From Caulobacteraceae bacterium (GTDB lineage: Bacteria > Pseudomonadota > Alphaproteobacteria > Caulobacterales > Caulobacteraceae), in contig CANGCO010000003.1 of assembly GCA_947452365.1 (NCBI GenBank), positions 23,737 to 87,736 of the forward strand: DNA of 64,000 nucleotides, written 5' to 3'. A model generated the notes under the pieces. That model saw only the letters and a program-made list of their open reading frames with translations. It was not told the DNA's origin and did not search any database. A program made the position numbers and the translations under genes. Below, piece by piece: positions 49,762 through 53,156 of the stretch (its first letter is position 1; every line of letters begins with the position of its first letter).

Positions 49762-51171
49762 TCAAGCCAAGGCTTCCAATTGTCCCGGCAGGGCATAGGC
49801 CCAGCTGGTAATATCCCCGGCACCCAAGAGGACCACCAGATCACCAGACACGGTCTCCTTGGCCACCATACCCGCCAGATCGGCTGGGCTGGTCAGGGCC
49901 AGAACCCTGCGGTGGCCATAGCGGCCTAGGCCCTCGACCAGGGCGTCGCGGTCAAATCCAGCAATCGGGGCTTCACCGGCGGTATAGACATCGGCGACAA
50001 TCACCACATCGGCATCGTTAAAACAGCTGCAGAAATCGGCAAATAGATCGCGCAGGCGCGTATAGCGGTGCGGCTGGACCACGGCCACCACCTTGCCCAG
50101 GCTGACGGCGCGGGCGGCCTTGAGCACGGACGAAATCTCGACTGGGTGATGGCCATAATCATCAATGACCCGAACGCCCTTGGCCACGCCCGTGGTGGTA
50201 AAGCGCCGCTTGACCCCGCCAAAGCCGGTCAGGCCCGCGCGGATCGCCTCATCCGTCACGCCCAGTTCGCGGGCCACGGCAATGGCGGCCAGGGCATTGG
50301 CCACATTGTGATCACCGGCCATGGGCAGGTGCAGATCAATCAGGCTGGTGACCGTCCCGTCGCGCGGCGAGAACTTGACATCAAACCGCGCGCCCTCTGG
50401 GCCCATAGTGACATTGGTTGCCCGCACCTCGGCCTGGGGGTTAACGCCATAGGTCACAAGCCGCCGGTTCTCGACCTTGGACGCTAGGGCCTGGACCTCT
50501 GGATGATCCAGACAGATGGCGGCAAAGCCATAAAACGGGATGTTTTCGACAAAGTCCTCAAACGCCTTTTTGACCGCGTCAAAATCGCCGTAATGATCCA
50601 GATGCTCAGGATCAATATTGGTCACAACCGCCACGGTGGATTTCAGCTTTAGGAAGGTGCCGTCGCTCTCATCGGCCTCGACCACGATCCAGTCGCCCTC
50701 GCCGACCTTGGCATTGGTGCCATAGGCATTAATGATGCCGCCATTGACCACGGTCGGATCCAATCCGCCGGCATCCAATAGGGCCGCAATCATAGAGGTG
50801 GTGGTGGTCTTGCCATGGGTGCCGCCCACAGCCACCGAGAACTGCAAACGCATCAGCTCGGCCAGCATTTCAGCCCGGCGCACCAGGGGCAGGCGCTTGG
50901 CCCGGCCCGCGACCATTTCGGGATTATCGGCCTTGACTGCTGTCGAATATACAACCGCCGAAGCGCCCTCAACATGGGCTGCATCATGGCCAATAAAGAT
51001 CTTGGCCCCCAGCTTTTCCAGCCGCTCAGTATTGGCACTGGCCTTGGCATCCGAGCCCTGAACCACATAGCCAATACGCAACATGATCTCGGCAATGCCG
51101 CTCATGCCTATGCCCCCTATGCCAATAAAATGCACGGGACCAAGGGCGAAGGGGACGGGGCGTCTGTTCAT
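49762..51171 (-). CDS. murC: UDP-N-acetylmuramate--L-alanine ligase
   Basis: [49 protein letters not shown]. Confidence 0.97.
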
Positions 51172-51228
51172 GTTTCCATCGGTAAATGATTTGTTGCCCA
51201 GGGCAAAGGGGGTGTGCGCCCTTGGGGC

Positions 51229-51726
51229 CTAAGATCTTAAGATTGCCGCCACATATTTAAGCAGCACCATCAGGTGCCTAGGATCAGAGGGTGAGGCTAT
51301 AAAATCGAAATGCTGGTAAAACTGACGCGCGGCCTCATCTTTTGCATGGACGATCAGGGCGCGGATTCCGGCAATGTCGGCAGCATTCAGGGTCCTTTGA
51401 AAAGCATCCTTCAATAGACCCGCACCAAGGCCTTGGCCTTGTCGCCTGTGATCAATTGCCAACCGAGCCAGAACCATGACCGGCACGGGGTGGCGGGCAA
51501 GGCCATTGACCAAACGCTCGGGTGCATCCTCAAAGGCGACCTGACCCACCACCAGCATATAGTAGCCGATCGGCTCGGACCCATCGAGCGCGAGATAGGT
51601 TTGCGAGGCCCTAGCCATCTGTGCCTGCAAGGCATAGCGGATGAGAAAACGGTTCAGGGGCTCTTGGCCACAATCAAACCCCTCGACCGCATGGTGACGG
51701 CCCAGCTTTTCAATGCAAAGCCCCAT
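51229..51726 (-). CDS. GNAT-fold toxin of a TacAT/AtaRT-like type II TA system
   Basis: RASQTYLALDGSEPIGYYMLVVGQV...VPVMVLARLAIDHRRQGQGLGAGLLKDAF; ATG overlaps the stop of the DUF1778 antitoxin gene. Confidence 0.87.
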   Translation of the reverse strand: MGLCIEKLGRHHAVEGFDCGQEPLNRFLIRYALQAQMARASQTYLALDGSEPIGYYMLVVGQVAFEDAPERLVNGLARHPVPVMVLARLAIDHRRQGQGLGAGLLKDAFQRTLNAADIAGIRALIVHAKDEAARQFYQHFDFIASPSDPRHLMVLLKYVAAILRS

Positions 51727-52016
51727 CAGGACGCTGGGTCGCTCTCAAACGGGCTATTGGCCGCAAACATCTTGGCCAGTCTGGGCATGGGCCGGGGCGA
51801 GGCGTCTAGGGCAGTCAGAAAGGCCTGCCATTGGTCTGCATAAAGACCAAAGCCTTGACGATCCGGCAAGGTCTCGGCCGCACGCGCCAGAGCGCTTTGC
51901 AACACAAATTCGCTGACCGAACACTGCAAAGCTAGGGCCGCAGCGCTCAAGGTCAGCTTGGCCTCACGGGTCAGGCGCAGATCAAGTTTTTCCGAACGGG
52001 TCAGGCTAACAGACAT
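51726..52016 (-). CDS. DUF1778 (RHH) antitoxin
   Basis: EKLDLRLTREAKLTLSAAALALQCSVSEFVLQSALARAAETL. Confidence 0.87.
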   Translation of the reverse strand: MSVSLTRSEKLDLRLTREAKLTLSAAALALQCSVSEFVLQSALARAAETLPDRQGFGLYADQWQAFLTALDASPRPMPRLAKMFAANSPFESDPAS

Positions 52017-52070
52017 GGCGCACTCCTCTGCACCAGGCTAGATTAAATGCCCGACATTGTTACGACAAAC

Positions 52071-53156
52071 CTAGCCCGCCGTCTGTTCGACTAGGTCCGC
52101 CAATCGCTCGGCGGCATCGGGCAGGGCCACGCCATGGGCGGCCTTGGCCATGGCGCCCATGGCCGCCGGATCGCCCAATAGACCCTCTAGAGCCTTGGCC
52201 ATGACATCAATGGTCAGATCGTCCTCGGCCAAGACCAAGGCTGCGCCGACATCGCTGAGGAGCTTGGCATTGAAGGTCTGGTGGTCATCCATGGCGATTT
52301 TCAGCGGAATCAGGATGGAGGGTTTTCCAGCGACTGCCAGTTCGCTCACGGTCGAGGCCCCGGCCCGGCCAATCACCAGATGCGCCTTGGCCAGACGGCC
52401 CGCCATGTCGCGAAAAAAGGGTGCAATCTCAGCATCAACCAGGGCATTGGCATAGGCCTTGCGCGCCTCGTCCATCGATTCTGGCCGGGTTTGTTGCTGT
52501 ACCTTGAGGCGAAATCGCAAGGCCTCAGGCAGTTGCCCGATCGCTGCCGGGATCAATTCCGATAAGAGCCGGGCGCCCTGACTGCCGCCCGTCACGAGCA
52601 GGTGAATCTCGCCATCAGGTGCCTGATAGGCCAGATCGGCTAGGCCTCTAATTTCAGGGCGAACCGGATTGCCGACCACCACAGCCCTTGCCTGAACAGC
52701 GGGCACGGCCTTTTCAAGCGTCGGAAAGGCGCTGGCTATGGCCTGGACCCGCGGGGCCAAAAAGCGGTTGACCCGGCCAAGCACGGCATTTTGCTCATGG
52801 ATCATGGCGGGCCGTTTGGCCGACAGGGCGGCCAAAAGGGCTGGCAAGGATGGATACCCGCCAAAGCCAACCACGATGGCGGGCTCGATCACCTTGAACG
52901 CGGCCCTCGCCTGCAACACGCCTTGCAAGACGCTGACCCCCGCCCGCACCATGCCGACCGGATCACCGGGGCGATAGGTGGCCGCAGACAAGGCAATGCG
53001 CTTTTCGGCTGGAAACTTGTCGGCATAGGCCGCGCCGCGCTCGTCCGTGGCCAGCACAACCCGCCAGCCGCGACTGCTCAAGACCTCAGCAAGGGCCTGG
53101 GCCGGAAACATATGCCCGCCGGTTCCGCCCGCAGCAATAACGGCAATTTTTCTCAT
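52071..53156 (-). CDS. murG: undecaprenyldiphospho-muramoylpentapeptide beta-N-acetylglucosaminyltransferase
   Basis: AAGGTGGHMFPAQALAEVL, GFGGYPSLPALLAAL, VTGGSQGARLLSE. Confidence 0.97.
   Translation of the reverse strand: MRKIAVIAAGGTGGHMFPAQALAEVLSSRGWRVVLATDERGAAYADKFPAEKRIALSAATYRPGDPVGMVRAGVSVLQGVLQARAAFKVIEPAIVVGFGGYPSLPALLAALSAKRPAMIHEQNAVLGRVNRFLAPRVQAIASAFPTLEKAVPAVQARAVVVGNPVRPEIRGLADLAYQAPDGEIHLLVTGGSQGARLLSELIPAAIGQLPEALRFRLKVQQQTRPESMDEARKAYANALVDAEIAPFFRDMAGRLAKAHLVIGRAGASTVSELAVAGKPSILIPLKIAMDDHQTFNAKLLSDVGAALVLAEDDLTIDVMAKALEGLLGDPAAMGAMAKAAHGVALPDAAERLADLVEQTAG

Follow-up and report, generated by a model that had tools for sequence, protein, structure and literature searches.

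The minus strand of the 64,000-nt stretch of Caulobacteraceae DNA analysed here (the window) carries, between positions 49762 and 53156, four genes in the order murG, antitoxin, toxin, and murC. The flanking genes were identified by their Pfam domains as murG on the left (52071..53156, PF04101 and PF03033) and murC on the right (49762..51171, PF01225, PF08245, and PF02875). Between them lie a tacA-like gene (51726..52016) encoding a 96-aa antitoxin of the DUF1778/TacA1, ribbon-helix-helix (RHH) type, and a tacT-like gene (51229..51726) encoding a 165-aa GNAT toxin. The antitoxin stop codon and the toxin start codon overlap as TGATG with one base in common, and the pair is separated from murG by 54 nt and from murC by 57 nt. 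A sequence-only reading had placed a TacA/TacT-like toxin-antitoxin (TA) pair with overlapping stop and start codons at 51229-52016, co-directional between murG and murC, and it was right in all of these respects, down to the exact coordinates. The host genome assembly amounts to 2.6 Mb, in which no second copy of the pair was found. The base composition is slightly atypical (toxin GC3 of 60% vs 66–71% in dcw genes), a deviation too weak to argue for recent transfer from GC3 alone. The same cluster also contains a secreted-looking M28/M20-type peptidase gene (PF04389; 47426-49030, minus strand) between murB and ddl; since about a dozen Caulobacteraceae genomes have a homolog at this same place or downstream of murB, this peptidase is a lineage-specific dcw resident.

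The antitoxin matches TacA1 (PF08681, E 1.6e-18) in Pfam and the AtaR/KacA chains in the PDB (E 2e-8 to 3e-7). The toxin matches the general GNAT models Acetyltransf_1/7/10 (E about 1e-7 to 1e-8); among solved structures compared by sequence, GmvT is the best match (9e-28), followed by TacT2, AtaT2, TacT3, and TacT, and a profile built from eight toxin homologs matches the PDB toxins with E values of 1e-21 to 1e-39 (best 1e-36 to 1e-39). When the predicted toxin model (pLDDT 85) was submitted to Foldseek, the top hit was TacT3 (6g96, E 7.5e-18, TM 0.87), and the best 34 matches were all TacT/AtaT/KacT/GmvT toxin structures, with ordinary acetyltransferases far behind. Tyr137 of the toxin aligns with the Y-to-F positions of crystallised inactive mutants in the PDB, and in Salmonella the TacT2 Y137F and TacT3 Y143F substitutions abolish toxicity (PMC5959882). 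By this alignment Tyr137 is the predicted catalytic tyrosine and it is intact, so that the degenerate active site which the sequence-only reading had named as evidence against itself is not found. The acetyl-CoA loop (Q96-GQGLG-G101) is mostly conserved among the aligned homologs, as is Arg88. PADLOC and the curated NCBIfam cut-offs gave no positive assignment of the pair. The sequence and fold matches place the pair, as a new member, in the TacAT/AtaRT (GNAT-DUF1778) family of type II TA systems; it lies at a permissive site.

Upstream of the antitoxin gene we found a putative operator, TGTCGTAACAATGTCGGGCA (52048..52067, minus strand), composed of tandem TGTCNNgACA-type half-palindromes with an 11-bp period and matching 17/20 positions of the consensus TGTCATGACAWTGTCTGGCA derived from homologs; none of 1000 shuffles reached this score. 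The element consists of two TGTC…GACA-like palindromes offset by one helical turn, as is typical of RHH operators. An element close to TGTCATGACAWTGTCTGGCA (at least 14/20) is present about 50–67 nt before the antitoxin start in 10 of 15 homolog loci, including the sister species, but this consensus was derived from the same homolog sequences, and the fair test is that of eight later hold-out loci (L137–L144, toxins 54–69% identical), all of which scored 16–19/20. Loci with toxins below about 45% identity scored 9–14. The operator is shared with relatives of the pair in Alphaproteobacteria, Gammaproteobacteria, and Nitrospirota-labelled assemblies, and with nine other loci of the family Caulobacteraceae.

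The conserved tandem palindrome overlaps the presumed -35 element of the antitoxin promoter. The candidate module promoter (52035..52063, minus strand) consists of a -35 GTAACA (52063-52058), a 17-bp spacer, and a -10 TAGCCT (52040-52035); its -35 is the right half of the first palindrome, which reads GTAACA here, a poor -35, and RTGACA in relatives. The same -35/N17/-10 spacing can be read in the sister species (G004), in G045, and in several homologs. A strict E. coli consensus scan gave no promoter, E. coli-type scans being uninformative here. An initial reading of the promoter as TTGTCG-N17-TAATCT was abandoned in favour of the -35 inside the operator, since the sister species does not conserve the -10 of that reading. 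The operator/promoter of the module, TGTCRTGACAWTGTCKGGCA, also precedes related pairs that lie at unrelated sites or are plasmid-borne, which argues that the module brought its own switch.

The closest relatives outside the genus have toxins of 54–69% identity and are scattered taxonomically. Among 390 Caulobacteraceae genomes searched, other toxin homologs were found in nine, and none of the other family or order loci, inspected with up to 1.5 kb of flank, adjoins ftsW, murG, murC, or murB. The closest relatives from named organisms, with toxins of 55-67% identity, are located on plasmids of Nitrosococcus halophilus (pNHAL01), Rhodovastum atsumiense, Phyllobacterium, Methylobacter, and Pannonibacter, and further homologs occur in assemblies labelled Nitrospirota and Dokdonella, those of Betaproteobacteria being somewhat more distant. 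In the phage collection only distant matches were detected (39% or less), and there is thus no sign of a prophage origin.

The identical arrangement is present at murG–murC in a sister species represented by an independent assembly (CANGEH010000067.1), which rules out an assembly artefact. The two species share 96% identity in the toxin, 88.5% in the antitoxin, 92% in MurG, and 99% in MurC. The sister assembly also contains a second partial murG (G004:C209:1-726, locus L085; 93% to the query), probably as a result of strain mixing in the metagenome bin. The comparison of murG–murC synteny that the sequence-only reading had proposed thus places the pair in two species and not in the whole order, and it shows an empty site in two other congeners (MurG 81%, MurC 93%), in which murG and murC are 67 nt apart, counting the stop codon; the remaining congeners were uninformative, their contigs ending in or near the region or their genes being absent from the search results. 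When filled and empty sites are compared, the last ~45 nt before murC align, and the new sequence begins just past the murG stop codon. A target-site duplication was considered as a mark of insertion and set aside, the congeners' junction being too diverged to define one. Between the two filled species the toxin dS is 0.46, similar to the 0.36–0.49 of its neighbours, which fits a single insertion before the two species split. The low dN/dS values (toxin 0.047, antitoxin 0.20) indicate that both proteins have been maintained, the toxin under purifying selection.

The junction itself is variable in the family. Among 44 informative Caulobacteraceae genomes (four further stretches cut by contig ends were excluded from this count), murG and murC are adjacent in 15 (8–207 nt), are separated by 1.07–5.5 kb in 14, and in 15 no murC was found within ~7 kb. 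The earlier statement that murG and murC are normally adjacent is thus correct for 15 of these genomes and fails in about two thirds. The neighbouring spacings are tight, ftsW–murG measuring -22 to 109 nt in 30/30 genomes and murC–murB 478 nt or less in 26/26 family genomes. Within the dcw cluster of Caulobacteraceae, the loose joint is the one between murG and murC. What is inserted there varies by lineage; among the inserts are genes for a MerR regulator, a short-chain dehydrogenase, and an AI-2E transporter, as well as a cytochrome/PQQ dehydrogenase-like pair. Two species of another genus (g14; G033 and G045) have at this junction the AI-2E transporter gene together with ParDE on the strand opposite to murG (ParE, PF05016, at L098:2420-2966 and L100:2395-2685; in L098 a ParD-like antitoxin ORF was seen next to it). 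The differences between lineages and the presence of ParDE imply that TA modules entered this junction at least twice.

A candidate promoter is also located directly before murC (51179..51206, minus strand), with a -35 TTGCCC (51206-51201), a 16-bp spacer containing CAAATC, and a -10 TACCGA (51184-51179) that ends 7 nt before the murC ATG. It contains the motif AAATCNNCTA, which at 7/8 or better ends 10–12 nt upstream of the murC start codon in 15 of the 31 family genomes, whether or not an insert is present. Among random windows taken from these loci, 0.4% attain this threshold, a contrast that is somewhat inflated by the motif having been defined on sequences later counted. In the present genome the motif is weakened (CTA to TTA), and about half of the family genomes lack it. 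The corresponding promoter-like reading is TTGACC-N16-TACCCA in the empty-site congeners vs TTGCCC-N16-TACCGA here. Read as a promoter, this element would start murC transcription at the ATG or within a base or two of it. Caulobacter crescentus commonly uses leaderless mRNAs (375 genes), 349 of its operons have internal starts (PMC4117421), and its housekeeping promoter has a TTG -35 (PMC4287350). Among the papers searched, none reports a murC 5'-end, a leaderless murC transcript, or a TA module inside the dcw cluster. The motif suggests that murC is transcribed from a start of its own, perhaps as a leaderless mRNA, in about half of the family genomes examined. If so, upstream inserts would not cut murC off from transcription, and their tolerance would be explained.

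We propose, with considerable confidence, that the pair is a self-regulated TacAT/AtaRT module, acquired horizontally with its own operator and promoter, and inserted at a permissive transcription-unit boundary between murG and murC. The module would have entered the junction in the common ancestor of the two sister species. We predict that the RHH antitoxin, either by itself or together with the toxin, binds the tandem operator overlapping the -35 and so represses the pair. In AtaRT a 2:1 antitoxin–toxin complex represses and excess toxin de-represses (PMC10135005), and the same scheme may apply here by analogy. Once released, the toxin would stop translation by N-acetylating the aminoacyl group of charged tRNA. 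The commonest target among toxins of this family is Gly-tRNA. Insertions would be tolerated at murG–murC because the site is probably a transcription-unit boundary, with murC appearing to have its own promoter. The broader statement that this joint is in Caulobacteraceae a true boundary inside the dcw operon, with a leaderless murC promoter, and a recurrent landing site for cargo that has received at least two unrelated TA systems, seems to us evenly poised between true and false.

The sequence-only reading had held that the position ties TA expression to the cell-wall operon. In its strict form, the pair would be transcribed mainly within the dcw operon, ftsW-murG read-through setting its level and linking toxin release to wall-gene expression. 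The genes are co-directional, the site has been retained in two species, and neither the 54-nt nor the 57-nt gap showed a convincing terminator in an E. coli-type scan (itself uninformative), so that some read-through from murG into the pair is possible. However, the operator and promoter-like elements are specific to the module and recur at unrelated sites, murC has a promoter motif of its own, the position is not common to any other examined relative, and unrelated genes fill the same gap elsewhere in the family; we therefore consider transcription mainly from the dcw operon unlikely and do not uphold the claimed tie. The further ideas that the pair may stabilise the cluster and that tRNA acetylation may be coupled to murein synthesis have the position as their basis, and a self-contained module at a permissive junction accounts for that position better; the position is a curiosity and not evidence of a link to wall synthesis.

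The slow protein evolution, similar to that of the housekeeping neighbours, might also suggest a domesticated remnant, in which the acetyltransferase is non-toxic and kept for another role or the antitoxin is kept as a regulator, but the catalytic tyrosine, the acetyl-CoA loop, and the conserved arginine are all intact and antitoxin and operator are both retained, which makes domestication improbable. It is very improbable that the pair was selected as a local addiction element guarding the dcw region against deletion or replacement: a second TA type does occupy the same junction in another genus, but so do many non-TA genes, which a permissive site fits better, and the flanking genes are already essential, so that extra protection of the region would gain little. 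The locus shows that an essential and normally compact operon can house a TA module at no obvious cost, at a joint that is seemingly a transcription-unit boundary. The 20-bp operator common to the relatives delimits a compact TacAT subfamily whose members carry their control site along when they move between phyla, and for dcw evolution murG–murC is the joint that breaks first in one family. The insertion site, the operator-defined subfamily, and murG–murC as a weak dcw joint in Caulobacteraceae are mildly new; the TA family itself is known.

The present pair shares with the Salmonella TacAT2/TacAT3 and E. coli AtaRT2 systems the antitoxin-toxin gene order with overlapping or adjacent frames, the GNAT fold (TM ~0.8-0.87) with its catalytic tyrosine, and the TacA1/DUF1778 antitoxin; it differs from them in its toxin, which is ~33-36% identical to theirs, and in its location between murG and murC. 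GmvAT (9ilr/9ils), a GNAT toxin with its own antitoxin and the best single PDB sequence match, differs in that its toxin is ~37% identical; GmvT is reported to be Gly-tRNA specific (PMC9177977). The plasmid pairs of Nitrosococcus halophilus and the other hosts listed above share the DUF1778 and GNAT two-gene layout where annotated, several with the same operator, but are plasmid-borne and outside any cell-wall cluster. ParDE of G033 and G045 is likewise a type II TA system at the same junction, but its toxin is unrelated, its orientation is opposite, and it lies beside an AI-2E transporter gene.
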